Source of the DNA: Cepaea nemoralis
Taxonomy: Eukaryota; Mollusca; Gastropoda; Stylommatophora; Helicidae
Length of the DNA stretch: 64,000 bases
Reading direction: 5' to 3'
Assembly (NCBI GenBank): GCA_014155875.1
Contig: JACEFZ010026856.1
Location: forward strand, 144,501 to 208,500
Part shown: positions 26,170 through 64,000 of the stretch, in pieces
How positions within the stretch are numbered: position 1 is the first letter of the stretch
Layout: each line of letters begins with the position of its first letter
Position numbers and translations under genes: made by a program
Notes under the pieces: generated by a model
Told to the model about the DNA's origin: nothing
The model's database searches: none
The model's input: the letters and a program-made list of their open reading frames with translations, nothing else

Positions 26170-26274
26170 TCAAAGAAACAGAGGATTCTCATATGCTGTA
26201 TTATCTGTGATGCTCACAGAGTCTCCAGCTTCTTCTGATTTCATCTTCGAGTAGGAAATGTTGCTGTCCTGGTA
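26170..26274 (-). CDS. Receptor terminal exon 15: cytoplasmic tail and stop codon
   Basis: Phase 0 entry, 34 codons plus TGA at 26170-26172. Acceptor TTTCAATTCCACAG. The tail contains YSKM, a YxxPhi adaptor signal, and ends TAYENPLFL. NPLF resembles the NPLY endocytic motif of vertebrate STAB2. No other stop-containing exon fits as well. The 3' UTR runs into the 23-bp array at 25470-26110; I see no clear AATAAA near the stop. Confidence 0.9.
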   Translation of the reverse strand, partial: YQDSNISYSKMKSEEAGDSVSITDNTAYENPLFL

Positions 26275-29200
26275 CTGTGGAATTGAAACGTGAGACTTTT
26301 ATATGCCCATGAACACAAACATCCCAGAAGAAAAACTCATAATCAAATTGATAACATACTAACAAAACAGCTTTCTGTCAGTAAAATGAAGGCCAGGGGC
26401 ATAATGCTATTATAAGCATGAATCAGTATTAGGAAAACTAAGAATAAAACTGAAGAAATTAAGGACAGTACCAAGAAGTATTAATCTCGATTTCGTAATA
26501 ACTGAATCAAATCAGGAAATGAGTGATGAATATGCCATTACTGTGCACAATAAGTACAATGCTACATAAAAAATAGGCAGTGTAGACGAACAATGGGATG
26601 TTTTAATAGAATAGAACAGGCATCAGATGAAATAATACCAGCAATAAAGAAGACTATAGAAGAAAATGGATGGCACAAGACATTCCACAATTGATGGACA
26701 TTAGAAGAAAAGGTAAACAAGATCAACATAAAATAATACATAGCGAACTGTTACGAACATGTATGGCAGCGAAAGAATGGTATTGAAGAACGAGTAGACA
26801 CAAAATATATGTATAGAAAGATACATAAATTAGCAGGCGTTAGTAAACATATAGAAAAGATGTCGGTTGAAAACAAAAGATGATGCAGTTATAATGGACA
26901 AAGAAAAGATCATTAAAAGGTGGACAGGATATATATGAAAGAGGTGTATGATGATGATGATGATGACAGTAGATCAGAAATAAGCAATTATGATCAATGT
27001 GAAGTACTACCAATACCGAAAGGAGAACGAACGAAAGAACGAACGAACGAACTTTATTTTCGAAAGGTAACAAATTGGGCACGCAGGCCCGTCTTACATT
27101 CGGCCCTTCCAAGTACTCATCTTTCGTTCATTAATGCATAGTGCATTCACATAGGAAGAAAACATTGTCAAATGAATGTTGTAAATATAAACAATGCATG
27201 TTACCATGTTATGAGACACATCCCCCCACCCATCCCCTATCTATCCGCGTGTCCTCAACACACACATCCACCACCAAACCACACACATACCCACAGGAAC
27301 ATACATTACCCCATCCATCCAACCATCCCCCAACCCACACATCCCACACACACCCCTCACATATACCATCTCCCCACCCACACACACACATCTCCCACCC
27401 ACCACACATCCCCCACCCACCCACATTGAAACCCAGGCATACATGCATGCATCCACCCATCCATACCAACCCAAACATCCCCCCATCTTCACACATCCCC
27501 CCATCTTCACACATCTCCCCATCCACACGCACATATCCTCCACTCATCCCATAACCTACCAACACTCACCCACCCACATATCCTCCACCACCCACCCACA
27601 CATCCCCAACCACTTAGCCAAACACACATCCCCCAACCACATATCCAACACCCGCACACACATATTCCCGCCAAATCCCATATCCCGCACCTACCCACAC
27701 ACATAACCCGCACCCACCCACACATCCCCCACTTACACACATCGCCCGATATACATCACATGAAGCAATGTAAGTACTGCTGGCTAGATAACAACACTTC
27801 TGTTATTGTGGATTGACTGTCCATTAAGGAAAATCGAACTCAAATCTTTCCTGTACTCGTCACAGCAATAGTAAATATATCATGTAGATAATGCAGGATC
27901 AGTAGTTTTAGCTCATAGCTATCCATCTTCCTCGTGTCATACTCCATGCAGCATTGACATTAATTTTCTCGACCGATGTTTCCCTTTGCCACAATGTTTT
28001 GCTGTTCAGCATCTTCTCTCTCTGTATCTTCCAGTCTCTCTTTCCTTTGAACTATCAGAACTTTACTGCATTTTTCTAGTTTACTAATTCTCATGATTTT
28101 TTCCAATGAATGTAGCCTGGCCTCGCAGACACATCAACCTCAATTATTGGCCGTCTTTCCACTAACTCAAAATACTGAGCATAATCTTGCAAAGAAATCA
28201 ACATCCAGCTGAAAGATGCTGGTGTTGACAGCGATGTCCTGTAAAGGATATGCAAAACATTTTTTTTTCCATTAAAACTAAAATTAAAGGTTCAAAAGGT
28301 TAAGAGCGAGAGGTTTGTCTTCTTTATACAGAGGTTCGCCTCATCTGGCGTGGTCTCTCTCTGCGGACCTGCAAGCCACCTGCCCAGAGCATTGCAGAGA
28401 GCATACACTCGGTCACTCCAGAGCATTGCAGAGACCATACACTCGGTCACTCCAGAGCATTGCAGAGAGCATACACTCGGTCACTCCAGAGCATTGCAGA
28501 GAGCATACACTCGGTCACTCCAGAGCATTGCAGAGAGCATACACTCGGTCACTCCAGAGCATTGCAGAGAGCATACACTTGGTCACTCCAGTGATGGCAG
28601 ACAGGGATTTCAAGAAAAACTGCACTCGTGGTTTAAACGAAACTGTCCTAAAGTGAACCCACGTCTTTGAGAGTTGCGAGGTGAAAATCTTGACAACTTC
28701 GTCACAAAGACTCTCTCCACCCTGTAACTGCTATAATTTAACTGTCTGACACTGTGCTCTTGCATCTTTGGTTTATTTATGTAATGATAATCTAAGCCAA
28801 CGTTTATGAATGAACTACTTACAAGTGATGGGTACCGGAGTAAAAACAAATGGTGTCGTTTCTTGTAAACGACAATGGCAATTATTGCCATAAGCACGAC
28901 AACAGCTGCCACTGTCACACCGGCTGTAGTAGCCTTCGTGGGGAGAAAAAAAAATAGTTTCATATTAATTCATTATAGATATTGGAATCATTAAGTAATT
29001 AATACGAATATGATATCAGAAAAAAACAACAACAGTCAAGCAATTTAAAAATCAGTTTTTCAATTTTTTTAACAATAATATATGTGAGTACATCAAGTTT
29101 GTTAGAACAGCATTTGTGACAAATCAAATTGTAAAAACTTTCAGTAACAAGAAAATTTGGGACAGCAATAACATATGTGACAGAACATGTATAACAAGCA

Positions 29201-32200: not shown

Positions 32201-35200
32201 GGGTGCACTTTCAGTCTGAGGAGGGTTTGCATCAAGTGCTTGAAGGATCTCTATTGTATGTGTCTTCTAAGTCTATGGCGGCCGCACATGTCTCTTCTCT
32301 GACCTGAAATCCTTCGTAAACATCGTGAGCAAAGACCGCCACATTCAGCCATGACTCTTTGTTACGTCTGTATCCTCCAAGTGTGGGCGGGAAGCAGCCG
32401 AGTTTTCCCAAGTCACAAGCAAGTCTGTGTGCTACAATTTTCTCCAGTAACTTGCTAGCAGTGTTCTGCATCGTAATGATTCTGTAGCCGCTTATCTTGG
32501 AATGGTCTTTGTTCGGTAATGGCAACGGCAGCAAGTAGCTGTGTAGCCATTCCTCTTTGATCTGACCCCTCTGGATAATGGTGTTGAATTCTCTGGCCAT
32601 TTCTTCCATGTCATCATCAGACATCGCCAGTAGGTCACGATATCGGATGCCTCCTGGGCCTATTGCGGTGTTAGGTGATTTTTTGAGCATCGCATGTATT
32701 GTCTCAGCTGTGATTATATATTCTTCATCTGTACCGACCCCCTCGCACAGCTGAGAGAGTGTCGTTGTGGTCCTCTGTCTGGCGGGCTCGTCTTTCTGGT
32801 CAGTCTGCTGTATGTAAGCTATGTGGCCTTACCTTTACCAGCATCCAACTTTTTCCATGTGAGGTCTGTGCCTTCAAAGTCTGGAATACCCCTACGTTGT
32901 GCAGCACCGTTCATGTTCTTATGGGGGCGCCACGATGTCGTAAGAGATCCTCGGAGCACACCTTCATGCAAAACTCGCCCCATTTCTCGGCCTTGGCCTG
33001 TTTGGCGCAGGATTTGAATAATGTCATCGTCCTATGGACCTCAGTCTTCAGGTCTGCAAACTCAGCCTGTGGCATGTTAGCCTTACTGGCTTTTTGCCAG
33101 TCTTTGACAGCCTGCCTCTTTCCCAGCCATGCCTTCTCGACCTCTCCATTCCACCATGGTGGTTGTAACCATCTTTTTTTGTCTCCTGCGGGAGGAAGTT
33201 AGTTTCCTTCTTCTGATCTTGCTTATGGCGTCTTAACCAGTGTTGTCATACGGGAAGGCATTTGTCTTGTTTCCTTGACTCCTGGCCTGTCTTTCTTGAT
33301 CAGGATGACACAAGGGTAGTGGTCACTATCGTGGTATCCCAGTGTGCCCCACCGGCACCTTGGTGCGATGGTGGGCGACGCCAGGGCCAAGTCAATGACG
33401 CTGTCAGACTGACCTGGTCGAGTGTAGATGTATTTGTGTCGATGAACTTTACTGTATTTCATAGGACAATAGAGTGTATAACACAGAGTCTGTATTGAGT
33501 TGTCAAATCCAAATACGTGTCGAGTTGTGTTCTAGCAGTCAGTAGGTAGAGATGGTACATAATGAAAGAGCAAAATTTAACCAGCCATAACAGTGATATG
33601 TCGACAGCTTTAAGTAACCTCTCTCAAAACATAAAAACATATGTACAGCATCAACTTACATGTGAAGCCGTTGAAGCAGATGCTTTCACAATTGCCAAAT
33701 CTTCCTATATGAGAATCAACAGAAATAATTACTGTGAGATTCTTTTTGAATATTATACATAGATTATATTCACTATTCTGCATCTGAACGCACTAACTGC
33801 TCAGTGACATCATTGCATGCTCTTTTGACACCAGCAATCAACTGTCTACTTACCACAAACATTTCCTAACCGATTCACTTAACCGGTTGTACTTGAAGGA
33901 ATTATTCATATATTTGTTCATATTGATTGTTTAGAACATTTGCTTAGGATGGACCGTGGTCGAGTGTTGACCTGGTCACTTTGTGCAGTGGGCGATGGCC
34001 AGTATGTGCGCCACGACAATAGTGTTGGAATAGTAGTGTCGATTCTATATGTGTTGTATGGCATCGTTAGGACAACTGTGTCTGTGTGTTACAAATTGTA
34101 TTGTATTCCATAGACTGTATAACACGGATATGTGTTGAGTTGTCAAATTCAAATACGTGTCGAGTTGTGTTCTAGGAGTCAGTAGTTAGAGATGGTAAAT
34201 AATGAAAGAGCAACATTTAACAAAAATATATGTTCCAGCAACAATATTTGTACGACCAACATTATATGTAGTACTAACAATATCTGCACAACCAACAATA
34301 TCTGCACCACCAACAATATATGTACCACCAACAATATATGTCACATCAACAATATATGTACCACCAACAATATATACACCACCAAAAATATATACACCAC
34401 CAACACTATATGCACCAGTAACAATATATCTGCACCACCAACAATATCTGTACCACCAACAATATCTGCACCTCGAAAATTATATGCACCACCAACAATA
34501 TCTGTACCACCAACAATATCTGCACCTCGAAAATTATATGCACCACCAACAATATCTGCACCACCAAAAATATATCTGCACCACCAATAATATACCTGTA
34601 CCATCAAAAATATATGTACCACCAACAATGTATGTCACATCACCAATATATGTACCACCAACATTATATCTGTACCACCGACAATATATACACCACCAAC
34701 AATATATACACCACCAACAATATTTGCACCACCAAAAATATCTGCACCAACAACAATATATCTGCACCACCAACAATATCTGTACCACCAACAATATCTG
34801 CACCTCGAAAATTATATGCACCACCAACAATATCTGCAACACTAACAATATCTGCACCACCAAAAATATATCTGCACCACCTATAATATACCTGTTTCAC
34901 CAACAATATATCTGTGCCACAAACAATATATCTGGGCCAACAACAATATCTGTGACACCAACAATATCCGTGAAACCAACAATGTCTGTGCAACAATAAT
35001 AACTGTCAGTACGTAAGTAAAAGACCCTTGTACGTGCCTTTAGTACATTGTGTATATGGTGCTGTACCCAGAGTTGTATACATCAGCGATCTTGTCAGCG
35101 GGTGTGTGGTCAATATCATGGTGACTGTCTTTAACTCCCAAGGAATGCCGAGCATCTATCCTCTGCACTACCCAGTCTTTATAGAATATATGTACCCCCT

Positions 35201-38200
35201 CCCCTCCTCCCCGTCCCAAACAGCAATATAGCAATATCTAATGGAAAACCACATATGTACAACATCAACTTACATGTGAAGCCGTTGAATCAGATGCTTT
35301 CACACTGGTCACATCTTCCTGTTTGAGAAACGACATCAATTATTACTGTCAGATTATGTTTGAATATTATACTTGGATTATATTCACTATTCTGTATCTG
35401 AACACACTGACTGCATGCATTACATGCTCTTTTGACGCCAGCAAACAAGTTTGTACTTATCAAAACACTTTTTAACAGGTTCACTTAACCGGTTGTGCTG
35501 GAAGGAATTATTCCTATATGTGTTTATATTGACTGTTTAAAACAGTTGATTAGGATATCATGTAATTAAAGCAGGCATAAATAACAGGTTGCCTATTGTG
35601 TTGCCTGACATATTTAGCTGCAATTCATCTGGTGATACTGCAGGGTTAGATATCACCTGAAGTCAATAGATGAATCCGTATCTGTCTGGAGTATATAACA
35701 CACATAGACACTGATACTATTCCATTGTAGAACATTTGTAGTGTACAGTTGCTTATCTACATGTCTCATCACTAACACACACGAATCCAAAAAAGAAGAA
35801 AGATACTTACAGGCCTGAACAATGATCCTGCAGTGAGATGTAGAATACCATTGTTTGCCTCTATATTTCCCCGGACAATTCTTACTCCATTTACAAGATA
35901 CTGTTGATGAGAAAACATTTGGCGTGTCATTGATATGTTATGTTATTCATTGATATTAAATAATTACTTTTTAATCATCACGATCATGTGTTATGCCGAT
36001 AAAAGTGGGTGTTCGTGGTTGGTCTTATCACATCATCATCAGTTTTGGATAAGAGTGGGTGTTCGTAGTTTGTCTTATCACATCATCATCAGTCTTGGAT
36101 AAGAGTGGGTGTTCGTGGTTGGTCTTATCACATCATCATCAGTCTTGGATAAGAGTGGGTGTTCGTGGTTGGTCTTATCACATCATCATCAGTCTTGGAT
36201 AAGAGTGGGTGTTCGTGGTTGGTCTTATCACATCATCTTGGATCAGTGTTATCGTTTGATAATACCATTTGACCAAACCATCTACGCGTTTATCTCTTTG
36301 TCTTCCTCTGGCGTATTTGTCATCACTTTTGCCAGTTGTCACTAAGGTTTCAAGTTTATCACTATTCATAATATGCTAAAATATTTTCATTGTCTGTATC
36401 ACATTTTCCTTATCAATTTACGGTGTTCAACTGCTTCTGAAATGATTGCCTCAATTGTTTCTATGTACTCCCAAAGTATTCTTTACATGCTTTTGTAAAA
36501 CCACATTTCTGACGCCATCATATATTTCTCGGCTTGTCTGTTTGTTATCCAAGTCTCAATTGTATAAGTTCTATATATTACTTTAAAACAGCTGTTTTGC
36601 ACACTACACGTGAGGGGATTGCATCTTTTGCAACAACGATTTTTGTTCTGATTTCTACATAGCATCTTCCAACAGATGGTAGGAACGAACCAATAGAACA
36701 ATTATCACTGTTAATTAACTTCATCATAATTATCTATCTGATCAGCATATTTATTATTACAATTATCAGTAAACAATCAACAAGACCAGGTTAGTCAGTT
36801 CAAAGACTGGAACCTATATCCTATCATCCCTCGGATGTTATATTATAACATTTATTATATTATTTTTTTTATTTTTATTATTATTTTATGTTATTATTAT
36901 AACATTTATTATATAACATATTATAATATGCTATATTATCCCTCGGATCATGTCACTCCAGTTTCCTATACTCAACAACAACCATGTTTCAGTAGCAGAT
37001 CTCCATTTCGCATCTTTGTGATAATGTCAAGGCAGCCACATTTGTATATTCTTGTCAAGAGTTGTCTATTTACCCATGTAATTTGAACTTAGTTTATGTG
37101 TTTTTTGTTTCTTAAATTCAAGAATGAACCAATAAATAAATGGATGAATTAAAGATTGAATGACTAGATGCTATGTTTACTCACATGGACACGATGATCC
37201 TTGAAGATGGCGTATAAGGGATAAATGAAAACTGAACCAACACATAACAGGTACAATCATCCATCACAGACTTGTGGACGTCCTGAGATAGAGATCCGAG
37301 CACCGATGCACTAATACAGTATTCATAATCTGATTCTTGAAGGTCACTACTACAGAAAAAAAGTAATCAGAAGAAAAACAACAGGCACAACAATTAATTC
37401 TAAAATCAAAATGTTACCTCTCCCTGGCCAATTAAAGTGACATTGATAACTTGACCTCTGACAGATGTCAATGTCCACTGACTGATGTTGTCTATCCCAG
37501 AATTTCTGTTGCTTATAGTACTGTTGACATCGTCCTTTGTGCCAGGATAGTTTGGTAATTTGAACATCCCACCAACAACAGTAAAGCTTGGGATGTTGAT
37601 GTACTGAAACATGTACAGAGAAACAAACATTAACTGGCAGCAATGCTGATTGTGTGGCATGTTTACACCAATGCTGTATAATGCCTCACTTCGTTCAACA
37701 TAGTCCAACTTAGCGTTACATTATTTATATTTGTTCTGTAGTTTTTGGTCATGTGATATTTATATGGGCTGTTTAGGGGCCTAATTGGCTGCTCGGGATC
37801 ACATCAACATGTGAAAAGCTACCTATCAAAACAATAAGCGTGATTACTGTATATAAACATGTAGGTCCTGATCGATGCAATAGACTTGGTGCACTGTTCT
37901 GAAATTATCACTGTATGATGTATGAGAGAAGACAGAAACACGTGTGGAGATATTTGTGTGCAATGTCGGAGATCTTTAACCAACAACCAAAGCAAAACTG
38001 CGTCTGTTTCAATGATCATCATTTGGACACAGAGCAGGGCTTTGGTTAGCCAAGATGCAAGCAGTGAAGCTATTAGTTTCTAAATACAACCATCATAGTT
38101 GCTGCATAGTTAGCCCAACTATAGGATATACACAAACATACAAAGCAGTAATATCTGCATCAGTAAATAATACATTACAAGTATAAAGATTGATCTATAG

Positions 38201-40407: not shown

Positions 40408-43400
40408 TAACTGAGAAACTTACATCTGTCAGAAGCCAAGAATTAAACGAGCTTAAGTCAGGTATCCTGGAAATAGCGTCCAGTAGATTGGTACTGCAAA
40501 GTTTTCCATCCCCGACGTAGCCACTTCTACATTCACAGACTGCATGCCCTGGTGTATTAAACACAGGACAGAGACATAGTTTTAACTTTTAATTCAACGA
40601 AAGAAATATCTAGCTTCACACATACAATTACATATATAGTGAAACCTCAGTTTTCGTTGACTTCGGTTTTCGTTCGATTTCGGTTTTCGTCGATTTCTTT
40701 CCAGCGAAAATGTGTCTCGGTTTTTGTCGGTTGCCTCGGATTTCGTCAGAGTGTCCACGTGGCCTCTCTGCTAATTTTGCGAAAACAAACAGATCAGCGC
40801 GTTCTTCTGCTCATTTCGGCGTTGTTTCTCGGTGTGTGAGTACCACTTGCTAATAAGTTAACCCTTTCCTTTTAGCTCCATAATGGGGCCAATACAGTGT
40901 CCGCAGCCAGCTGCTTTTCGAAGAAGAAGGTTAGGAATACGATTGAGTTGAAGAAGGAAATAAGTGAACAATACGAGAGCGGCATTAAGATTGCTGAAAT
41001 CGGCCGCATGTCGCCCTCCAAAATAAGTTTTATTGTGGCGTAAAAGAAAGCAATAAAGGGTGCTAATGTAGCGAAAGGCGTGAGTGTGCCAACGAAACAG
41101 AGATCGCAAACAATTGAAGATGTCGAACAGTTATTTTTAATTTTGATAGATCAAAAACACTTAAATAGCGATTCTTTTTCTGAGACAATCGTATAATAAA
41201 AGGCCAAACTGTTGTATGCGGATCTCAGAAAATGCCTGAGACGACTGCTAGTTTACTTTCTGATTTTAAGGCCAGCAGAGAATGTTTTGAAAAACTCAAG
41301 AGCCTCACTGGCATACAAAATAAGGGAATTTACCCCAGATAGTGCCTTGATACATAAGGTCCTTAAGGATGGGGATTCCACTTCCAAACAATAATGTCAG
41401 CACCTCTCTCACCCGTCCTCGCTGTCTTCCATATGCCACAAAGAGTGTTCAGAGAGGTACCTGGTAGATGACATGTTAAATGTTCATATAATCTTCACAA
41501 TAGTCGTTTATATTCATTTTATATTAATTTCTTATTGATTTTAGTATTATTTATTCTTTATAAAATGTGTTTTGGGTATGTATTTTGGAGTGTCTAGAAT
41601 TAATTGGATTAACATTGATTTATATGAAAAATAACTGCCTCGGTTTTCGTCGGTTTCGGATTTCGCCGATTTTTTTTCGGTGGGTTATCGACGAAAACCA
41701 AGGCTTCACTGTACTCAACATCATAACACGTTATCTTTTACACAATTACTGTCTATGGTCAATATTTGTGTAAAAAATATTTGCTTATAATTTAAATATA
41801 TTATTAGTAATCCTTGAATTTACTCTTCTCCAACGCCTACTACAATCTCTCTAACCTAATCCTGCTGCGTCTCCTCTTTGTTCTTCTGCTTCTTCCTCTT
41901 CAACTCTGTATTCGTATCCCTCAAATGCCATGTTGTTTGACATGACTGATCTTTTAACTCTACACCTCTTGTCCTCTTACAATAGTATCTATTCACGAGT
42001 GAGTATTTCTGCAAGGCATTATCCTGGACTATCTGATATCTTTCAACTCTGGTATCTTTAAACGAAACCAAACTAAGTACATTTTCAAAGATTAACTCTT
42101 TCTTTTATAGGTTGCTGTTCATTCAAATGTAACCCAATAAATGGGATTTATACTTAGTTGTATATCCTTTACAGGACGTAGCAGTCAACTCCAGCATATT
42201 TGGCTGTTAGTGATTCATGGGAGAGTTTACGTTCAGTAGTTTGCCATTGCTTTTTGAATGGCGGGACACATACCATTGTATGGAAACCAACGCAAGCGAA
42301 ATACTTCTAAATCGCCTGCAGCTGTGTTTCTAACACTCACACAACACACGTGCCAACTTATCAAAAAGGAAATCAAACGAATAGCAACCAAACAATCAAA
42401 CAAATACATATTTTAACGGATATAGATGACGTCGACGTGGTCGAAAGGATACTAGCGCTCACTATAAAACTTCCGGTTCGCTGATGGCCAAGTAGGCGGT
42501 TACATCCCTAGACCGGCATTCAGTTGGACTCTCGTTCAGAAAGCATTGGTAAACTGATTGACTTACAATTATCTAGACAACAAAAGCGAGGTTGACTGCA
42601 ACGTTCTGCATTGAACATGCAACATTTATTTTTAACGGATTTAAGTACACATATTTTGAATAACGAAGAAACAAACAATAGATTGCACGATTTATTGCCT
42701 GGCATATTTCGCTGCATCTCGTCAGGTACATACTGCAAAAATCACACGACTTACGTGAATTAACTAGATAAATCCTTCAAGTTGAAATATACACATATTC
42801 GCACAGTAATGTAATAATTCACATATTTTGTTTTTAAAGCAGAGCTCTTGAAAAAGTAAGCTACAGGAGCAATAGATTTATGATTAACCAGGCTACGAAG
42901 CAAAGACATGAAACAATATGCAGGACAAATCATGGAATTAATCCTAGATATGAGCAACCTTAGAAAATAAACGGAGGCAGAAACATAATTTCTCGTCCTT
43001 GATTAGGAACTTACGTATTCTATTACAAGTACTTCAGAAGTCGGTGTAGGTTCGCCTGATGGCGAGGGACACTGGTAATATGGAAAGCTAATCCATCTAC
43101 AAAAATGAGTCCAATGCATTTGAACGCAAAAAAAGAAAGACAAAAATGTATACCACAAGTATATGTTGAAGGTAGTATGATGAATATGTTTTCTTCTCTC
43201 TGAAATAAAATAACAATACAAGAAGCAAAACGTGTCACCTTCATCCATATCTGTGACCTTGGGTTGTGTAAATTTGCAGTCTGCCCTCTCCAAGTCACAG
43301 CCTCCATTACGTGAAGTGCAAGGGTCACTGTTTTGTTGACACCATGTCCCGTTGCCATGGAAGCCAGGATTACATTCACATTGAGATGTCTGGTTGAATA

Positions 43401-46400
43401 TCTTTAGACATGATAAGAGAAGGATACGGTAAAGGTATCCACCAGGGGTAATATTCAAGTGAAAATGCCCTACAAGTATGATATAAATGAAGACAGCATA
43501 TAACAAATAAGATATGGATGAATGCATAATATACCAGTTAAGCTAACGTTAATGCATCCTAAAATATGGAAGATAAAGGTATCACAGTACAACAAAGAAA
43601 CAGGTGAAAGTGTCATACAGCAGGTAAGGCATAGGTGAAGTTATTTTAAAACAGATAAGAAACATGTAGTGTATAACATGTTAAGTACAGGTGAAGTTAT
43701 CATATAACAGGTTAGATTTAGATGCAGTTATCTTAAAACTGATAAGAATGTATCCAACAACAGGTAAGATAAAAGTGAAGGTATCTTATAGCCATCCATC
43801 ATGTGCCATGCCGATAAGTGTGGACGGCCATCTCACTCGATCACCAGAGTCGTTGATCAGCTCCGTGTTTCTGTCTCGACCATGCCAAATATTTATTTCT
43901 CGGTCTTCCCCTTGGTCTCTTCCCTTCAATCTTGCCAGTCGTTAGTCACCAAGTTCTCCAAATCATTTATTCTCATAACATGCCCACAATATTTTGACTG
44001 TCTGCGTCTAATGACTCTAATCAGTTTAGGATCTTCATTTATTTCTTGAAGGTCTTGTTCATTGTTTTTTCTGTCTGTCCATGGTATTCTTTGCATCTTT
44101 CTCAGAAACCACATCTCAACAGCCATCAGATGTTTTTCAGCTTGTCTGCTCATTGTCCACGTTTCACATCCATACAAAAGTACAGGTTCTATGTACTACT
44201 TCTACACTCTTGTTCTCGTCATATCAAATGCTTCTCTAAAATCAATAAACACACATCCACATAGACTGCTGTTGTTTATATTCAGGTGCCCATTTTCTAC
44301 CATGTTTGTTAGGACCGTACGGGAAGAATATTTTGGTCGAAATCCTGATTGACTGTCGACTATAAACTTGTTGCGAACTAAATAATGTAAGGTTGCTTTA
44401 TGAATGTGCTTTTCTAGTTGTTTAGATAGTGATGATAGTACGGAAATAGGCCTATAATTGTTCAGGAGATCATCGTTCAAAGAGACAGATTTGAGAAAAT
44501 GATACACTTTAGCGATTTTGAAAGCTGATGGAAAGTGGCCTTTGGCGGGACACTGGTTGTATATATAGGTTAGCGACACACATATCACTGATATTTGTTT
44601 TATTCATTAGTAAGTTCTTAAAATAATTTTTCTTTTCTCTTCGTATAATATATTGCACTTTGTTTCTAAGGGTACGGTATGTGTTAAGGTCCCTCTTTTT
44701 TATGTGCTTTATCTCTTTCTCTCATGATTTCAAGTATTTCCTGGGTGATCCACCGCGGTTTAACGTGATGTTTTACTCGAATGTCCTTGACTGGCACATG
44801 TCTATGAAACACATCAATAAATGTCTTCATCCAGATTGCCAGAGCTTCATCCGGGTTAGGAAGTTGATAAATATTGTCTAGACGTGAACTGAGCGAGTCC
44901 TGTAACAATGCGTTTTGATTGAAATTGTTGTCAGCTTTTTTATTTTACACTTATGTGTTTATGTTGTTAGTTTTAATTCCGTTTTAGACAGTGTGTAGCA
45001 TATTGGATAGTGATCGCTGATTGCACAAGTTGGTACGGTACATTCTATTATGTCGTCTGAGCAAGTTACATAAATGTGATCTATCGGTGTTCACGATGAT
45101 TTAGTTATTCTAATAGCTTGTTTTACTATTTGTTGGAAGTGTATGATGCAGTTATATTTCCCCATGTTATGTTGGATTTGTTGGTGTCAATGTTAAAGTC
45201 TCCGAGTAGTATGATTTCTTCCGGGCATTGAACACCACATCCATGAAGGCAGTGAAGTTCTCGTACGAGTCGTGTCTAACCCTAACCTTTCGATAGAAAT
45301 AACATATATGTCCTAAGAGGCCAGTGATCAGGGTTGGCGTGCCAATGTCTGCCACATCTCGTAGACTACCATCTATGTCCTAAGAGGCCAATGATCAGGG
45401 TCGGTCAGGGTCTACCTCAACATGTAAACTAAAATGTATGTCCTAAGAGGCCAATGATCAGGGTTGGCATGTGGTTGGTTACCTCAACATGTAGACAACC
45501 GTAGCTACAAAATCCCAACCAATTACATCATAATCAAGTCTAAAGAGATCATCCTGGCGTGGACGGGGAGCTGTACTCCACGTGGAGATGACAGGCTTAA
45601 TGACAATGCACAAGTGGAATGAGACATTTCCACCTAACCAACCGCAGTCTAACATTAGATGTTACAGCAACATGACACAAACAGCAAATACTGGACGCTA
45701 TGTGTGCATAGAGTTTAGAAATACACCACGAAGGTAATACTTACATTTAAGGTACAGTTGGCATTTGGGTGACATCCCCCTTCTTCAGTACAGCTGGCCT
45801 GTTTATGACATCCCCCTTGTTCAGTACAGTTGGCATGCGGGTGACATTTGCCATGTTCAGTACGGTTGGCATGTGGGTGACATTTGCCATGTTCACTACA
45901 GTTGGCATGTGGGTGACATTTGCCATGTTCAGTACAGTTGTCATGTGGGTGACATTTGCCATGTTCAGTACAGTTGTCATGTGGGTGACATTTGCCATGT
46001 TCAGTACAGTTGGAGTGTGGGTGACATTTGCCATGTTCACTACAGTTGGCATGTGGGTGACATTTGCCATGTTCAGTACAGTTGTCATGTGGGTGACATT
46101 TGCCATGTTCTGTACAATTCACGTGTGGATGACATTTGCCATGTTCAGTACTGTTACACTGGGGTGTGCATGTGTACCCATCTCCATCGTAGCCCGAGAA
46201 ACACTGACAAGTGACTCCACTGCTGGTCTCATTACACCAGGCATGGTCGCTGCAGTTGCCATTCATATACTCACAGCTGTTGTCAGCTATAGGAAGAGAA
46301 AACTGGTTGCATGTCATCTTTTTACTACCAACATTCATCATTATTATTAATATCATCATCATTATTTTTATCATCATTATCTTATATGTCATCATGCTCA

Positions 46401-49500: not shown

Positions 49501-50468
49501 GCACCATCAAACATAATTATACTCTTCATGCCTGTCTCACAGATATGTTACACTATAGAGGAAATTAGATATGAAGTTTTACTCACATTTGTTACAATAT
49601 GGAGGCACGAGATCTGCACGTTCACAGCTCTCACAAAGCTCTGCAGAAAACCCAGGGTTGCATTTACATTTCCCAGAACCTCTGACTCCGTCATCACAGA
49701 TGCCATTTCCTGAACACGGGTCTTCTGGGCCTCCTGGACACCCTGTTTATGGAAATAAAGATGGTTGTTGCTGCTAAATGTCGACATATATTTCTGTAAA
49801 TGTCTCTTGACAATAAAATACCTGAAACCCGTAGAAGGACCATGACAAACCCTAGCTTAACCCTAGTCTGTCTCAATCATAAGCTGGTTACATTCTAAAC
49901 TAACATGACCACCCCTAGCTTAACCCTAGTCAGTCTCAATCATGACCTAGTTACATTCTAAAATAACATGAGCACCCCGAGCTTAATCCCAGTCAAAAGT
50001 TAACTCACGAAGAGACCCGGATACTCGCACCAGAAGAAGATAGTCCATATTCTGTGGGCATGCTATGAGAAAGAGAAAGTAGCAGCATGACGTCACAACG
50101 GGAAGCTAGAAGGGAGGAGAGTGAGAAGGAGACCAATAGAGAATACGCTGGACAGTGTGACATCATGGTATGAAGGAAAGTCGGTATCAGAAATGATTGG
50201 CAGCACACGAGAAAGAAGACATTATCACCCAGTCAGCACAGTATGGACTATAAGAAGATACTGAACAACCATGACACTGTGGGATAGGACATGATCACCC
50301 ACTCAGCACAGTATGGACTATAAGAAGATACTGAACAACCACTGAAACTGTGGGATAGGAAAACTTCTACGCGTATTCTTTTTTTTTTTTTATTACTTTG
50401 CGTTTTCTGTGTTTGAACCCAAGCGTAGTCCATACACTTTTTACTATGCCTAGTACACAGGACTGGTG

Positions 50469-50512
<44 letters not shown>

Positions 50513-53500
50513 TGTGTGTGTGTGTGTGTGTGTGTGGCGCATTCCTATTTACTAGTTTTCTACGCCATCAGGCGACTCCGACTTTTGATGTACTTGTAAT
50601 TTATGTCCCAAATCAAGAAGGAGAAGTCAATAATTTAATCCAACAGGCCGGTGTAAGGGTTGAACTAGTTACTTGGGAATCAGGAAGTTTAAGAGCGAGC
50701 GCTCCTAACCATTCTGCGATGCTGACCTCAATTAACGAGTATTGATTTGTGTTCATTGAAGACAATGAAGCAAAATGGTCACCAGAATACATAAGACAAC
50801 TGTGTAGGCAATACGAGTACAGTGATTTAAGACCCGTCATCTATCAAGCTTTCTGTAACACTCAGTAAGTCTGACACTTCATCAAAATGTCTAATTGAAG
50901 TATACTTTGACACCTAATAAGCCAGAAACATCACCAAAGTGTCTCATTGAGCCATAAAGTATACTTTAACACTCAATAATCAAGACATTTTAACAAAGAG
51001 TACCACTGAACCACCAAGTATACACCGACATTCAATAAACCAGGAACATTAACAAAGAGTGTCACTGAACCATCAAGTATACACCGATACTCAATAAGCC
51101 TGGAACATTTAATAAAGAGTGTCACTAAACGATCAAGAATACACCAACACTCAATACGCCGGGAACATTAACAAAGAGTGTCACTTAGCTATTAAGTTTA
51201 CACCGACACTCAATAAGCCTGGAACATTAACAAAGAGTGTCACTTAACTATTAAGTTTACACCGACACTCAATACGCCGGGAACATTATCAAAGAGTGTC
51301 ACTTAACCATTAAGTATACACCGACACTCAATACGCCAGGAACAATATCAAAGAGTGTCACTTAACCATTAAGTATACACCGACACCCAATAAGATAAGA
51401 ACATTAACAGTGTCTCACTAAACCATCAAGTAAACACCCACGCTCAATAAGCCAGACATTTTAACAAAGCCTCTAACTGAAGGCTCAAGGACACTTTAAC
51501 ACTCAGTAAGTCAGTGAGCTCTAAAAGGTGTCATCACTAGCCAAGACATAACATCCACTTGAACTAACCACTACGGCAAGCAGACATAATTTTCTTGTAT
51601 GCTTATGCATGTCACATGTTTCTAAGTTCATTCAGAACTGAATATTTCAATATTTAACAGACATTAATAGTTTCGTCTTTCTGAAACTGCAAAAATTCAA
51701 TCTATTTGAATATGATCATCTTGAATCATCTCCTTAGTGATTTGTTCCCATAAGAAATATCCAGTCCTCTCATATCCAGTGTTTTAACACTACTCTCATG
51801 TTCTCGCAGAGATTACTGTAAACATATTAAAGTACAGAAATGATACTCACCATCACAATGTGGCCCATAGTAACCACCACAACATTCTATTTTCTGGAAG
51901 ACAAGAAACAAGTCAGTGAGAAACATTATTCAATGTAACCCATGGCATTTACCTATTTCATTCCCGCATTCCCCAAAGAAAAACAAAACAACTTGTATTT
52001 GACACGAGTCAGTCAGAAAAACAATAACAGTTATTGTGGGTTTTGTCACACAGCTTCCAGATGTTACTGAATCTGTCATTGTGCCTGCAATCACTAAGGT
52101 TGTACTGAATCTCTCAGGTTTACTGAATCTCTCAGGTCGTACTGAATCTCTCAGGTTGTACTGAATCTCTCATGTTGTATTGAATCTCTCAGGTTGTAGT
52201 GAATCTCTCAGGTTGTACTGAATCTCTCAGGTTGTACTGAATCTCTCAGGTTGTATTGAATCTCTCAGGTTGTACTGAATCTCTCAGGTTTACTGAATCT
52301 CTCAGGTTGTACTGAATCTCTCAGGTTGTACTGAATCTCTCAGGTTGTACTGAATCTCTCAGGTTGTACTGAATCTCTCAGGTTGTACTGAATCTCTCAG
52401 GTTTACTGAATCTCTCAGGTTGTACTGAATCTCTCAGGTTGTACTGAATCTCTCAGGTTGTACTGAATCTCTCAGGTTTACTGAATCTCTCAGGTTGTAC
52501 TGAATCTCTCAGGTTTACTGAATCTCTCAGGTTGTACTGAATCTCTCAGGTTGTACTGAATCTCTCAGGTTGTACTGAATCTCTCAGGTTTACTGAATCT
52601 CTCAGGTTGTACTGAATCTCTCAGGTTGTACTGAATCTCTCAGGTTTACTGAATCTCTCAGGTTGTATTGAATCTCTCAGGTTGTACTGAATCTCTCAGG
52701 TTTACTGAATCTCTCAGGTTGTACTGAATCTCTCAGGTTGTATTGAATCTCTCAGGTTGTACTGAATCTCTCAGGTTTACTGAATCTCTCAGGTTGTATT
52801 GAATCTCTCAGGTTGTACTGAATCTCTCAGGTTTACTGAATCTCTCAGGTTGTACTGAATCTCTCAGGTTGTACTGAATCTCTCAGGTTTACTTAATCTC
52901 GCAGTATGCACTAAATCTCTAGATTTGTCACTAAATGTAGCAGAGTGTAGCAACTCTTATGGTATGCACTAAATAAACAGGTGTTCACAATCTCATATTC
53001 AGGAGTACATTCCAGAAGATGATTGGTCATTGTCACAAGAAGCTCATTGTTTTAGATGGACTTACAATTGACCATACCACCACATGTGAACACACAGATG
53101 ACTATAAGTGAATTTTAGAAATACGGAAATAGAGCATGCACCATATATTTTAGTGAATCTAGACTTGCAGCCTCAGCAACTTGAGCCAGACTAAATGGAG
53201 TTGGTAAATTTGCGGCAATGTTTGAGCAACTTCATGTGGCACATGATGCACTAAAAGTTAAAATGAATTGTTCGTTATTAATGTTATGTGTTGTTCTTTT
53301 GTTGTCGTGGACTGTCAAGTGTAGACAACTCAGTAGCATTGCCACCACCAACAACAACTTCCCACGGGTGTAGAGAATCACGAGTCCTCGCACGTCTGGC
53401 GCATGTGTTTCATGTCCCTGGTTGGGGTCTATCTGGCATCCTTGCACGTCTGGCGCATGTGTTTCATGTCCCTGGCTGGGGTCTATCTGGCATCCTTGCA

Positions 53501-56500
53501 CGTCTGGCGCATGTGTTTCATGTCCCTGGCTGGGGTCTATCTGGCATCCTTGCACGTCTGGCGCATGTGTTTCATGTCCCTTTTTGGGGTCTCTCTGGCA
53601 TCTCAAAAGTGACAGAGTTAACAGCGTGAACATTCCTGACTATCCTGTTACCATCACAATTGTGAATGATCACTATCTTACTAGTGTGTACTTCGTGCTG
53701 TTGTATTAAATAACAAACAATTTGTTGCATGAAAGAACAAATGTGATCGTTGTATGGAAAGAACAAACATGATGTTAAATGGAAGAACAGAAGATTATGT
53801 ATGATAGAACACACGTGATGTACAACAGATTCAGCAGTTTAAAAGGAGAGTTATCCTGAGTACATGAAGTTGGGTTGAATTGCGATGAGTTGAGCTGAGT
53901 TGAGTTGAATTGCGTTGAGTTGAGTTGGGTTGCGCCAGAAACCGACATCACAGCTCTCCTGGCATTCCCATAAGTGCTTTTTCCTCATCTGAAACAGCCA
54001 GCGAAGAGTCCCAGTACTAATGTTACTAGAACATTCTGATTAAATGTCAGTCTGGCCTTTCCTCGGAGTTTTGAGTGCCAGCCAGATCCTCTGGTCACTG
54101 CCTGCAGCACCATTCTCCTCAAGCAGTGATAATCTATCAGTTCTTCTGCACTATACACACGAATCCAAAGGACCCCGACCATGTCTGTCTCATCATGCAC
54201 CAATACAGCACCACGTGGTGCAGACCCATCCAATATGTCTGCCTCTTTGTTTCCAACCACACCAGCGTGTCCAAGGGGGGAAATCCAACAGATGCTCTAT
54301 ATTGTTTTAATTGAAACCTCTCATTCTACCCGTAGCATGTTTGTCTTCACATTTCTCATAATTCGTCACAATCACGACATGCGTGTAATGTTTGTCATCC
54401 ACCCAGTAGAACGCCGCCATGACTGCCTCCACTTCCATTCTCAGACTAGATATGGTATCTTATGCCAGGCTCTCCTGCACCAAACACCAACCACCAACCC
54501 TCGCCACGAATCCTCCAAGCACATCGTTCACCTCTTAGCACAGAGCCAGCCGTGTACATGATTACATCGTCTGGTCGCTAATTTTCGTGGATCAAGGGTT
54601 TGCACAACCCATTCCATCCAGCCTGCCGGTCAATCCCTGCATTCCCAGTCCGATATTATTATGACCCGCGCAGGTCTGACGTTTCCGCTGGCATTCTGAG
54701 TTACTCTTCTTCTCTCCCAATGTTTTCAAGCATGCACACTTCTCAGATAGTGTCCTCTGCCCGAGCCTTCAATTATTTCCCTCTGATCAGCCTGTGGCCC
54801 ATACATGTGTACAGGGCTATATACAGGGGGTGTTCCGTGTCTGCAGCCACTGGGATATATGATGCAGCCTGACGTACCTTGAGCCTGTCTGCAATCGTGT
54901 ATTAACGTTAATTTTATGTATATAGGCATCGATATAAAAGCTGAACTACACAGCTTAAGAAATAATGAGAATATTTGAATCACTGAATAAATCATTATGA
55001 ATTCAGGTAAGTATGCTATGGTGAGAGAGTAAGGCAGAACAATGCAATGCCATAAATGTTACACTATCTAAAATTTACAATATCAGATTGTACAGAACTA
55101 GTTTTCTACACAATAACGCTTACACTTGTATTTCTAGCACAGATCTGTTGACAGCCAACTGTTTCTTCATGTTCATCTGGGGACATTAGAAAGCTGCATC
55201 TGTATTCTATGATATGGGCCGCACCAAGGGATGTAAATCCGTCAGGACATGTCAGATTGTGAGCTGTACAGTCTCCACACGGCCCCTGATAAAGAGAAAC
55301 ATAGGATGCTGTTAATAGAAAACATGAATTTCCCTTTTACTCGCTGAAATACATCACTCCTGTCACGTTAGGACTTGGTCATAGGTTGTTCTGCCTGTCC
55401 ATGGAATTTTTATTTTTTGTTTTTGCATTTCCCTCTTAAACCACATTTCCACAGCCATTACATGTTTTTAAGCTTTTCTGCCCATTGTCCACGTTTCACA
55501 TTCATATAAAAGTACAGATTATATGTAGAACTTCAACATTCTTTTTCTCTCTGTGATTGGCATAGTTTTATTGGTCAGTATGCTTCCCATCTTTCAAAAG
55601 GCAACACAGTAGCGATTCTTGTTCTATTCTCTTCAAGGCACCCCCCCCCCCCCTTTTTCCCCCACCAGATGTTACGACTGTTCCGAGATAATTGTACCGA
55701 TTCCGATTCACTTGTTTAAGAATATTTCAATTTACCTGTATATGGCATTGTGGTATTTCTTCCTTCCTAATGACGACCATAATCTGTCTTTTTATTTTAC
55801 AATTTAATTCTAACCCTAGTTGTTCATTGTATGCAACAACATCGTTTACTAAATGTTGCAGATCCTGCTCATTGTCTGCAATCAATACCGTATCATCCGC
55901 AAACCTAATGTTATTGATATTACGTCCCCCAATCGTGGTTCCTCTCAGTTCTTCAAATTTCTAAAGAAATTTTCACTGAATAGGGAAAACAGATCTGGAG
56001 ACATCACACATCCCTATCTCACACCTGTCTGATTCGGTTCATAATGACCTACTTCATAATAATTTTTTTTTTTTATGGCAGCTTGTTATTTCCACTATAT
56101 GTTGTTTACAAGTTTAAGATCTTACCCATCAGTTTATAGATATACAAGCTTTCTCATCATGTTGACATATCTTACTTTATTGAAAGCCTTTGTGTAGTCA
56201 ATAAAATGTATTACCTTCTATAGAACATATGGTTAATGTTCTCAGCATATACAAAACATTTAGTATACTCTTGCCTTCAACGAACCCACTTTGTACTCCT
56301 ATTTCTTAGCACAATCTTCGTGGTGTGGCTCATTATATTAACTGTTCGATGTTGATCACATTTCATGGCTTCCGATTTCTTGGGATTGCAATACATACAA
56401 AATTACATAATTCAGGATGTATATATCCAGTATCACATTTTATGATCAGCAGTCTGGTGACTTGATCTCTTCCTTAATCTTCTCGGGCAATGCTCATGTC

Positions 56501-58118
56501 TGCTGTGATGTTGACTGGACCCAGTCTTGCTAGTTTTAGAATGATTAAGAGCATCTTCAAAATTGATGGTCCTTTATTATTATTCCGAATGCCATAATGT
56601 TCTTATATTGTGTCATCAAAGGTCTTTCACATAATCCGACAACGCATCTACAATCTGATATTTTCCTATTCTGATTTTTCCATCTTAGGGTTTAAGGCAA
56701 CCTGTTAATGTGTATGTTCTTTTGTTAGTGATGTAATTAGTTCTCTTTTACATTAAATTGGTATTCCGGGTGTTGTGTTAGTTTTCAATGACCATGCAAT
56801 TTTTCCCAAGCCATGCTTCGTTTGCCCCGTTGCACAATTTTCTCATTTCCCCGTGAATCTCATCATACAAGCATATGTGTCATGGTTATTTTGTTATTTC
56901 TTCTTATTTCCATGAGTTTTAAGTTGTCTTCCGTCAATCATTTCTTACGTTCCATTGTCTTCATTTTTGGGATAGTTGTTTCTGCAGCTTGGCTGACTGA
57001 TTTCTTTAATATTTTCCATTGGTCTCTGATATCTTGAAACAATATTTCCAGATCGGACAATGCATCAGATTTTGTCTGCGCCTCTACGTTGTATTTATCT
57101 TGTATCTCCCCACTCTTCAGTGCACGTAAATCAAATTTAGTATTTATTTGTGTATATTAGAATTTCTTTAAAATATATATGTATATTGCTTATGATTAGT
57201 CTATGGTCGCTGTGGCAGTCTGCGCTTGGTAATGATTTTTCTTTATGTAAAGCATTTCGAAATCTTTTGTTGACGAGAATGTAATCAGTCTGATTCCTGA
57301 TGTTATAGTCAGGACTCCTCCATGTTCATTATCTCCTTGGGTGCTGTTGATACCAAGTGTTTCTAATAATCATATCACGATCTTTTCCCGACTGTACACG
57401 TTTGCAACCTCATTCGTTTTGTGTGGGATGTGTGTGTAGGTGGAGAATGTGTGGACGGGGGAGGTGTTGGTTGGGGGATGTGGGTGGGTGGGTAGAGGAT
57501 GTGTGGGTGGCGGATGGGTGTGTGGGTTAGGATGTGTATGTCGGTGGGCGCGGAGAAGTGTGGGCTGGTGGGGACATCCCACCATGCAGGTGTATGTTAC
57601 TTAACATAGATATTTACAGCTCATGTGATTATGTAGAGCTGCAGTGGTGTAGTATATCCTCACCAGTGCATTGTTCTGTTCTGATATTGTTTGGAAGCAG
57701 ACTGGCGTAGTTTCGGATACATCCGTATGCAAACTGTTTCTTTGCGAAAAAAAAAATAAAATAAAATTATCAATAGCAACAGCAATGAACGCGTGTAACT
57801 CAATAACATTCAGTATTACAGTACTTGTGAAACTTGCTTTCGAACTTACCAAAGATGTCTCACTAATATTCAAATCACATCGATTGTATACTGGACGCAG
57901 GAACCCGTGGACTTCATGAACAACGCCTGCATCTGTCCACATGTCTGGGTGGGTGATTTCCACACCATTGATATATATCTGGGTAGGATGATAATTTGAT
58001 GATCATGAGGTGGCCTTCATAATTGAGAACATCAATATCACATGTGAACTTTTGAGAGTTTTGTTGTAATATGTGCGGACACACATACACACACACATAT
58101 ACACACACACACACACAG

Positions 58119-58196
<78 letters not shown>

Positions 58197-61100
58197 CACC
58201 TGTGATATATGAGGGTAACGGTTTGATATCTATTGTAGCTGAAATACAAATCATTGAGACAGCTCTAGGACAGGCCGGGTTTCATCCTTAGCCATTCTGC
58301 AGACTTCATGGCAACACTGGCAGTGACACAGATGATGCAAGGATCGTTTTTTTCGGTAATGAGTGTATATAATGTTGGTTTTTCTCGATTACACAAGCCG
58401 CATGTTAGTTTTCTAATTATACAAGCTGTATGTTAGTTTTCGCATTATACAACCTTATTGTTAGTTTTCTCGTTATTCAAGTTAAAATGTTAGTTTTCTC
58501 ACTATAAAAGCTTTAGCAGTAGTTTTCTCATTATGTAAGTTATAATGGTAATTTCCTCATTATATAAGCTGTAATGTTAGTTTCCTCATGATACATGCCA
58601 TAATGTTCGGTTTCTCATTGTACAAGCCGTAATGTTTTCTCATTACACAAGCTGTAATGTTAGTTTCTTCATTATACAAGCTGTAATGCTAGTTTTCACA
58701 TGATGACAGCTGTAATGTTAGTATTTTTTGTTTCATTATATAAGCTGTAATGTAGCTGTTTCATTCATTAATCATCATCATTATCAAGTGGCTTGTTGAG
58801 TGGCATTGGCGATCATGCTTTTCCAAATCTTATGATATCCAACTGCATGTATCGTTTCGTGCACCGACACCCTTCCTGCCATGAGACAAGACTCAAGATT
58901 CTTCTCTCGCTGTCTTCTGATTTATTGCTGTCATTATACTGTCATCAGCGACATTAAGTTATTCATATTATGGCCATCAACCGCGACCCCTGGCATATGT
59001 TATGTTGATCTCATTATTTGTTCACTGTACAATGAAAACAAATCAGGAAACAGTAAACAATCTTGTCCGACACCCTTCTTTATGCGCTGAAATGTTCCTA
59101 AACGTTTGTTTATTATGACAGCTGCTGTCTGCTGCCAATATAAGTTCTTCATTTTTCACAGATCTTTGCCATCAATGTTTAATTTTGTTAGTACTATTCT
59201 TTGATAACCGCTTCATGTTTCACATCGTCAAATGCATGTGTGTGGTCATTGTGTGTGGACAGTGATTAACCAGTGGACAGCTGCTAATAATCCCTAAACG
59301 GACAAGTGACTCACCCCCCCCCCCTCCCCCTTAGTGAACAGTGACTAAGTGTTCGATCAGTGGACAGCGACTAATTATGCCATCAGTGGACGGTGACTAA
59401 CTATTCCATCAGTAGACATTGACTAATTACCCCACATAAGACAAAAACTTACCTCCATATCAATAGACAGCAATTAACTACCCCATCAATAAACAGCAAT
59501 TAACTACCCCATCAATAGACAGCAATTAACTACCCCATCAATAGGCACCAATTGTCTACCCCATTGACTGACTGGCACCTTGCCGTCTTGACAGACCATA
59601 GTTTGTAAAATGGAGTTATACCTCTCCATAACACAAAGCCTGGGCTGAATTTAGAGACCATGTGTTGCCCATGCAGCACGATCCATCTCTCGGATTGCCT
59701 AGTTTACTCCAGAGGAAAGGTAACACCAATACACCTGGAATAAGACAAGCTAAAAAAGCTGCCGGATCAGCAAAGCAATGCTCTAGCTGTCCGCCTGTCG
59801 GAGCTTCGATCCTAGGCCAGTTGCCAACCTAGGCTTAGGGCCTGGTCTGCCCTGTCATGACATTTAGCCTTTATGTTGCATTTCCTCGCACTAGGATAAG
59901 GCATGTACCCTCCGAATTGCACTCCTCCGCCCGAAATCCGTTGGCACAATGGGGGGGGGGGGTGTCCGGTTTGGTAAACGCCGCCCAAAATTCGGCGCTA
60001 ACAGAAGCAGGTAGCAGCGTCTACTTGTCATGCGGTAGCTCAGTCATATCTAATACCTGACATCATCATTACGCCATTAGTAGTCCGCAGTTAACTACCT
60101 CATCAAAGGACATTGACTAATTACCACTTCCATATTAAGTTGAGTATTAACCAACTAGTGTATCTGGTGATCTCTGTTTCTAGCCATTAAGATCTTCCAC
60201 CCAAAAGCTTGCATTTCATCGATGTTGATTCACGAAGATGATGATACAGTTGAAAGTTCTCTCCAAGCACCGAGCAACCCTCTAATAGTGTAGCAAGATA
60301 AGGTTCTAACGTAAAAGGAGCAGAGGAAGAGGAAGAAGAAAAAGAAGAAGATGAGGATGATGAAGATTGCAATTGCATTACAATGCACGAACAATTGTAT
60401 TTGTGACTACACTGAACATGATAAACTAAAATAGCAAAGAAAATAACCAACCTTACTACGAGGTCTCTTAATTGACAGCCTGTATCTTGATCCCAAGATT
60501 GTGTCTTTCTCCGTCTTATCTAGCATGGCATTAGTGGAAACACGCTGAGGGAGTATATGGTACTTCAAGAAGTCTGCAGTCTGTGGACAGAATAGCATAT
60601 GAAACAGTTGAATTATCTTGTTAATAAATTAGCATATCAAGCATTAGAAATAAAATATGGGAGGGGTGGATTAAGGCTAGGAAATTATATATAATAAGTG
60701 TGTGTCTGTGTATTACTGCATACATAAATATAATGTGTGGGCAAACATTGTGTATTAAACCACGTGTATGAAACCACGTGTATCACACCTCGTGACCATC
60801 GCTCGCAGCTCGTGTGTATATTCAATGATCACCGATGTCCGTTATGCTCTCTCTTCTCACACAAACACACCCCTAACACATCCCCCCACCCCCTCACAAC
60901 CCACATTTTTTTTTAAAACTGCTCTCAACTGTGATAGTTGTCTAGTTGTGTGTCAGGCGTCCACGGTTCGGTCCCACCGACGTCCTGCATTTAATTGGTT
61001 TACCTGTGGCGAAGAAGTTGCCGGCGCAGTTCTAATCCCACCACCGCGTTCGAAACACAGCTGTGAAAGATTTGGCAACAGACCATCTTGCGTTTGCTTT

Positions 61101-63634: not shown

Positions 63635-64000
63635 CTGTAGAATCATTCAATATTTCATAATAAATTTGTCGTAAGTAAATAATATTGCTAACATAACAAC
63701 ACTTCTACAGATAAGGTCACGTGAAGGAGAATAAGTTTTACGGTAATGCCAGAACAGGTGTTGTTACACCGGCGTGTAATAGTAAGCTAGGTGACGATAT
63801 TGTGAGCAAGGGGAAGCAGTTCCCTTCCACACATTGTTTATTCAAATAAAAACAATCACTACTACCGATTGTACGAGTCCGCGTGGACCCAGTGTTATTC
63901 TGATCAGAGCAAAAACAAATTTGGTCACAACTGGAACACACTAAGGGTCGTGGTGTTGGTATGTGAGCACGCTCACCACTCTACCATTTTTTTAATGTTG
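63635..64000. other. Receptor intron, no further exon seen
   Basis: I looked for another FAS1- or EGF-coding exon upstream of 63634 and found none; the preceding exon lies outside the window. Confidence 0.6.

Follow-up and report, generated by a model that had tools for sequence, protein, structure and literature searches.

An exon of a stabilin-like receptor gene in the land snail Cepaea nemoralis carries eleven tandem 36-nt units encoding a Cys/His-rich repeat. On balance, this array probably arose by tandem amplification of the C1-C2-C3 half of one EGF_3 module in land-snail stabilin-like receptors, giving a length-variable, glycosylated, disulfide-rich spacer. The array exon lies on the minus strand (46286-45745) of the window, i.e. 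the whole stretch of 64,000 nucleotides that was analysed, and is one open exon encoding first a complete EGF_3 module and then the eleven units. Its features are as follows.

45745..46286, minus strand: array exon; phase-1 start, phase-0 end; acceptor CTATAG/CTGAC, donor TTAAAT/GTAAGT; EGF_3 E=3.8e-12
46168..46281, minus strand: complete EGF module ahead of the array (NSCEYMNGNC...DGYTC); Pfam EGF_3, 46.7 bits
45751..46146, minus strand: eleven tandem units, each exactly 36 nt, consensus EHGKCHPHANCT
45859..45894, minus strand: unit 8 in register EHGKCHPHANCT, with Cys to Arg (NRT), TGT to CGT
45751..45786, minus strand: last unit, EEGGCHPNANCT; it supplies C2 and C3 to a complete EGF that takes its C1 from the final Cys of unit 10 and its C4-C6 from the following exon

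A preliminary description, made from the sequence alone, had placed an eleven-unit Cys/His array at 45756-46156. The array is real and that location essentially right (units 46146-45751); Tandem Repeats Finder (TRF) gave 45752-46155, with a period of 36, 11.2 copies, 89% matches and 0% indels. The array stretch widens to 46158-45745 if the leading Cys and the exon's final two residues are counted. The consensus unit EHGKCHPHANCT corresponds to NCTEHGKCHPHA in the register chosen in that description, which had also counted an N-x-S/T sequon in ten of eleven units; the same count is obtained in register EHGKCHPHANCT, in which unit 10 has ASCT and unit 1 is preceded by an NST. Compared with each other, the halves of the consensus unit match at 11 of 18 bases, a value as high being reached in 22 of 20,000 shuffles. 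The array end, CTEEGGCHPNANCTLN, runs in phase 0 into the TSQCECNPGFHGNGTWC of the next exon (43.4 kb), and its three Cys are thus C1-C3 of a complete EGF that an intron interrupts; it reads CTEEGGCHPNANC, like an ordinary EGF_3 module.

The host gene was compared with protein relatives from Candidula unifasciata (P0001 and P0007), Bradybaena similaris (P0002 and P0005), Lymnaea stagnalis (P0006), Elysia (P0009) and a fish (P0008), the weak matches P0003 and P0004 being excluded. The protein searches reach only proteins of a length similar to that of the query, and few snail species were returned. P0005 contains three Fasciclin (FAS1) stretches and EGFs, followed, by eye, by a hydrophobic stretch and an NPLF tail. 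Its tblastn matches are collinear on the minus strand; they begin at about 228.7 kb of the contig (loci L013-L015), run through the window and reach the tail at 26262-26176. Fourteen pieces placed with P0005 fall within the window, and splice-like borders were seen at many, not all, of them. The array exon is the eighth of these pieces, in agreement with its earlier designation as exon 8, though the gene has further exons beyond the window. An EGF cluster precedes the array exon, and the final EGF-FAS1-transmembrane-NPLF part follows it. The other pieces, all on the minus strand, are listed here.

63488..63637, minus strand: upstream FAS1 exon (approximate ends); tblastn P0005 49%, E 1e-7
62185..62310, minus strand: upstream FAS1 exon (approximate ends); tblastn P0005 45%, E 3e-5
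60449..60580, minus strand: upstream FAS1 exon (low end approximate); tblastn P0001 49%, P0005 47%; acceptor CACAG
57850..57981, minus strand: upstream FAS1 exon, end of the domain (start approximate); tblastn P0002 48%, P0005 40%; donor GTAAGT
55124..55285, minus strand: upstream Cys-rich exon GPCGDC...GCQQIC; tblastn P0005 54%, E 2e-14; borders visible
51851..51893, minus strand: upstream exon KIECCGGYYGPHCD; tblastn P0005 71%, E 0.017; borders visible
49587..49742, minus strand: upstream exon CPGG...GSGKCKC..GF (stabilin-type EGF); Pfam EGF 23.6 bits; tblastn P0005 76%; borders visible
43239..43389, minus strand: next exon after the array, with the second half of the split EGF and then the first half of another EGF (donor end inferred); tblastn P0001 88% identity, P0005 65%
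40424..40548, minus strand: exon with the end of the further EGF and the start of the last FAS1 domain; tblastn P0005 72%; donor GTAAGT
37424..37606, minus strand: FAS1 exon, middle part (match ends, not splice ends); tblastn P0005 59%, E 2e-16
35820..35939, minus strand: FAS1 exon YLVNGVRIVRGNIEANNGILHL (match ends); Pfam Fasciclin 16.7 bits, below the cut-off of 22; tblastn P0005 57.5%, E 2e-6
28832..28942, minus strand: transmembrane exon (match ends), hydrophobic stretch then YKKR, by eye; tblastn P0005 41%, E 0.002
26176..26262, minus strand: cytoplasmic tail with NPLF; tblastn P0005 65.5%, E 3e-4; CTT TGA next in frame

The predicted product of this gene is a stabilin-like receptor, with FAS1 domains, EGFs, a transmembrane helix and an NPLF tail. 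It resembles Stabilin-1 and -2 (FAS1/EGF/Link scavenger receptors) in having several FAS1 domains (three in the collinear P0005, and the window FAS1 exons found by tblastn), a stabilin-type Cys-rich/EGF block (CC..YYG..C..CPGG; Pfam and tblastn), EGF_3 modules, and a transmembrane helix with an NPxF/Y-type tail (exons 28942-28832 and 26262-26176, by eye and with P0005). The fish protein P0008, which is named Stabilin 2, matched with 27% identity over 73% of the query (E 2e-19). The preliminary description of the ectodomain as stabilin-like is upheld both by this match and by the P0005-collinear exons. A Link (Xlink) domain was found in P0008 but not in P0005, P0002, P0001 or P0006, the scan covering these relatives' proteins. 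The label is therefore limited to 'stabilin-like'. The differences from Stabilin-1 and -2 are the lack of a Link domain in the 760-aa Bradybaena relative and, in eight Cepaea genes, the expansion of an EGF half to between five and 18 full units plus half units. No array of such units was seen by eye in P0008, the single fish sequence inspected. A literature search of limited coverage returned no paper on such arrays in snail stabilins, and the main text of a paper on Cornu aspersum mucus makes no mention of fasciclin, EGF, stabilin or histidine.

Two other features of the region were noted. A second tail-like piece (S-L-N-x-P-D-N-x-Q-Y-E-N) lies shortly downstream of the NPLF tail at L018 (7613-7663), at L022 (2637-2687) and in the window beyond 26176, and is perhaps an alternative protein end. 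The window (1-64000) is also rich in minisatellites and microsatellites, most of them outside the placed exons (100 TRF rows, overlapping rows included); examples are 34221-34967 (18 bp x 40), 52065-52920 (19 bp x 46) and 7537-9065 (37 bp x 41).

A search of the C. nemoralis genome with the protein of the array exon revealed arrays at no fewer than eight loci, a lower bound given that 150 of 17,535 first-look candidates were scored. Together these contain 88 full and five half units. The window array has 11 full units, and those of C7435, C18945, C12545 and C8983 have 5, 8, 8 and 7, respectively; the larger arrays are the two of contig C14458 (17 full and two half units; 14 full and one half) and that of C24697 (18 full and two half). 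Four contigs, one of them the window's own, together contain 16 occurrences of a 26-base piece of the unit. The array exon is open at all eight loci and is bounded at corresponding positions by an AG acceptor and a GTAAGT donor, and not one stop occurs in the 1,056 codons of the 88 full units. It is apparent, from eight loci with open arrays of the same unit, that the array is beyond chance. Two paralogues in the same genome, C10867 and C7517, contain a single unit only.

The possibility that a single EGF loop was expanded by misassembly, which the preliminary description had named as the case that would refute it, is very improbable and was rejected. The assembly is a long-read draft, and the paper describing it reports that retained duplicates or haplotypes remain in part (PMC8022989). 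The eight arrays, however, differ from one another in length and in unit sequence, and their sizes (approximately 180-700 bp) are far below the subread N50 of 16.9 kb given in that paper (PMC8022989). Furthermore, the two C14458 arrays belong to convergent genes on one contig that have separate transmembrane and tail exons. Eight arrays, alongside a single unit in two paralogues and in four of four snail relatives covering the site, do not represent one misassembled loop. In the C14458 pair (L010 and L018 versus L011, L020 and L021), the array exons are about 48 kb apart and the tail exons about 20 kb apart, with arrays of different length. In all 28 pairwise comparisons of loci, similarity is higher in the EGF part of the exon (87-98%) than in 300 bp of the preceding intron (46-94%). 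Alternative haplotypes might account for some pairs, e.g. C14458b with C24697, which are 93.6% alike in the intron.

In the protein collection, the array exon alone gave 216 candidates, none at E<=0.001, and in the NCBIfam scan one array had a weak EntC match (E 1.3e-7; 30.8 bits versus a cut-off of 770), which is read as an effect of composition. Among the weak genomic matches (E above about 1e-18; at least 205 matches in all), three of seven inspected (L036, L041 and L052) were simple tandem repeats. One of these, L041 (C26219:463387-463701), is an unrelated minisatellite that reads in one frame as a 12-residue Cys/His repeat, CTPHQRCTSHQY; such a pattern can thus arise without an EGF origin.

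The source of the unit is indicated by the relatives. An ordinary single EGF occupies the array site in all four of the outside snail relatives that cover it: CYSAEHGECHPQAKC in P0005, CDGTETTACHQWARC in P0001, CDILPNGGCHPSANC in P0002 and CDSLPGGPCHLNATC in P0006. P0007, in which the stretch is absent from the gene model, P0008 and P0009 were left out of this comparison. The first unit of an array, e.g. CNSAEHGKCHPHANC in C14458a, closely resembles P0005. Pfam EGF_3 (PF12947) matches three arrays in 6, 7 and 7 stretches (E<=10), the window array being that with six, and the best stretch of each corresponds to profile positions 3-18 or 4-15 of 36, i.e. the first half. Whole-array scores (19.6-22.9 bits) are below the curated cut-off of 28.5, and the array units have two Cys each, not the six per module of EGF_3.

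The single EGF of the relatives, together with the first-half matches to EGF_3, indicates that what is repeated is one half of an EGF, its C3 occupying the place of the next C1. By these sequence comparisons, the copied piece is the first half (C1-C2-C3) of an EGF_3 module: the best-matching stretches of the array align with the N-terminal half of the profile and the array ends like an ordinary module, but the units lack C4-C6 and the C3 of one unit takes the place of C1 of the next. EGF modules are usually duplicated whole, as disulfides cross between the two halves. The unit had previously been considered a lone C2-C3 loop that multiplied by itself. Its derivation from an EGF module stands, but the lone loop is ruled out, as the relatives and the EGF_3 profile show the C1-C3 half to have been copied. 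The sequon N-C-T and the second His (His 8) are absent from the units of the unexpanded relatives (CHPQA, CHPSA, CHQWA and CHLNA), and are thus derived features. A tree of 14 EGF rows and 42 columns requires one change for the array (support 67/76; 60% of bootstrap trees), and a single origin of the arrays is favoured on this alignment.

Spacing of the Cys residues is highly regular across the eight arrays. Of 174 Cys-to-Cys steps, 160 are of six residues. The eight first steps are of eight residues, as also in the single-unit C10867, and the other six, of 12 or 18, are sites of substituted Cys. Cys is retained at 169 of 176 lattice positions and lost at seven. The six-residue spacing is kept by all five half units, each of which fuses the start of one half with the end of the other, as exchange between half units would be expected to give. 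The number of Cys before the last complete EGF is 19 in the window array, with the leading Cys counted, 8 in C7435, 33 in C14458a, 27 in C14458b, 35 in C24697, 13 in both C18945 and C12545, and 10 in C8983. Parity is therefore not conserved, being odd in six of the eight arrays. Uneven parity and the seven lost Cys would not favour a strictly paired disulfide ladder. The preliminary description had drawn attention to a unit that had lost a Cys, leaving an odd count that could allow intermolecular bonding. The loss is real (TGT to CGT), but an odd number is nothing special in this family, and so constitutes weak evidence for such bonding.

Among the 88 full units, the two Cys are kept in 85 and 84, His 6 in 85, Gly in 79, His 8 in 77, Asn in 77, Thr in 76, His 2 in 75, Glu in 73, Lys in 72, Pro in 69 and Ala in 49; the sequon is present in 72. 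Single-base variants seen at least once comprised 18 of 20 possible synonymous, 44 of 84 nonsynonymous and none of four stop changes (Fisher p=0.002, eight loci), and in the first five loci 17 of 20 synonymous and 32 of 84 nonsynonymous (p=0.0003); the test assumes independent variants, although units are copied into one another, and these p-values are accordingly guides. Within-array pN/pS was 0.37-0.67, below 1 at all eight loci, compared with 0.22 for the neighbouring EGF. The arrays vary as if under relaxed purifying selection.

These data bear on the proposal that the array has expanded almost neutrally, as a coding minisatellite among the many minisatellites of this genome, its reading frame being maintained solely for the sake of the downstream domains. 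We give this a real but minor chance. The window is full of tandem repeats (100 TRF rows), unit numbers range widely with Cys parity not kept, pN/pS exceeds that of the neighbouring EGF, and the unrelated L041 minisatellite likewise reads as a 12-residue Cys/His repeat. The excess of synonymous variants, the pN/pS values below 1 in every array and the retention of Cys at 169 of 176 positions argue against it.

Under the preferred explanation, amplification of half an EGF_3 module into a spacer, unequal exchange between 36-nt units, and sometimes between 18-nt half units, would change the length of the array. The product would be a length-variable, N-glycosylated, disulfide-rich spacer that may lift the membrane-distal FAS1/EGF domains off the cell surface, many lengths being tolerated while the six-residue Cys spacing holds. 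The histidines of the array could add metal or pH sensitivity. From the sequences, we think a spacer role most likely, partly tolerated as a near-neutral expansion. In these arrays, amplification has acted on half a module, in several paralogues, and the half-unit steps preserve the Cys spacing. They may show a repetitive protein domain arising from a fragment of an old one. If the proteins fold and reach the surface, they would provide a natural test of disulfide pairing in which Cys are shared between neighbouring repeats.

It is also conceivable, but unlikely, that the array is a ligand- or metal-binding surface, in which dense H-x-x-C and H-P-H clusters would bind Zn/Cu or polyanions in a pH-dependent manner and the receptor would internalize the ligand. 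HxxC is kept in 72 of 88 first halves and 73 of 88 second halves of the units, His 8 (77/88) is absent from the unexpanded relatives and hence derived, and the receptor has an NPLF tail. Extracellular Cys, however, are expected to be oxidized. The best-kept histidine, His 6 (85/88), also occurs in the unexpanded relatives, as does each unit's 'CH', which alone therefore does not amount to a metal motif. Retention of His 2 and His 8 (75 and 77 of 88) is close to that of Glu 1 and Lys 4 (73 and 72), which indicates no special constraint on His. Taken together, these observations do not single out metal binding. Dense His-Pro-His repeats and N-glycosylation are also found in histidine-rich glycoproteins; the Cepaea array differs in having two Cys per unit, an EGF origin and a membrane receptor as its setting.

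Structure prediction with AF2, run without relatives, gave pLDDT values of 33-41 for the array. When two relatives were included, the values were 50 and 41 for the first two blocks and 28-34 thereafter, and 81-83 at residues 11-40, the EGF ahead of the array. This model-based result neither supports nor excludes an array fold.

A look-alike repeat occurs in the Tenebrio-type antifreeze proteins of beetles (TCTxSxNCxxAx), which have a period of 12 residues with Cys at positions 2 and 8 (PMC8038014). The array read as NCTEHGKCHPHA has the same period and the same Cys2/Cys8 placement, the unit starting at the N of NCT only by the choice of register. It differs in having N-C-T/S, not T-C-T, with a potential glycan, and in being EGF-derived; by analogy, a glycan at this N would sit on the TCT-like face. 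On the beta-helix with a disulfide in each coil that marks this family, the AF2 values of 28-34 over most of the array speak neither for nor against. No antifreeze family model appeared among the Pfam matches at E<=10, the filters of which drop most weak matches, nor did a PDB chain of this kind, and this candidate was set aside. A bolder reading, which we regard as doubtful, is that the half-EGF units fold as a continuous, disulfide-laddered solenoid on an antifreeze-type Cys2/Cys8 lattice, lengthened and shortened in steps of half a coil or a whole coil in at least eight receptors, with rows of His and N-glycans displayed as an adjustable metal- or pH-responsive stalk.

Finally, reverse-transcriptase-like open pieces are situated on the minus strand in introns of the receptor gene, at 30.5-33.5, 44.0-45.1 and 48.4-49.5 kb, and are LINE-like by eye (e.g. 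LSFADD and LIFADDAAV).
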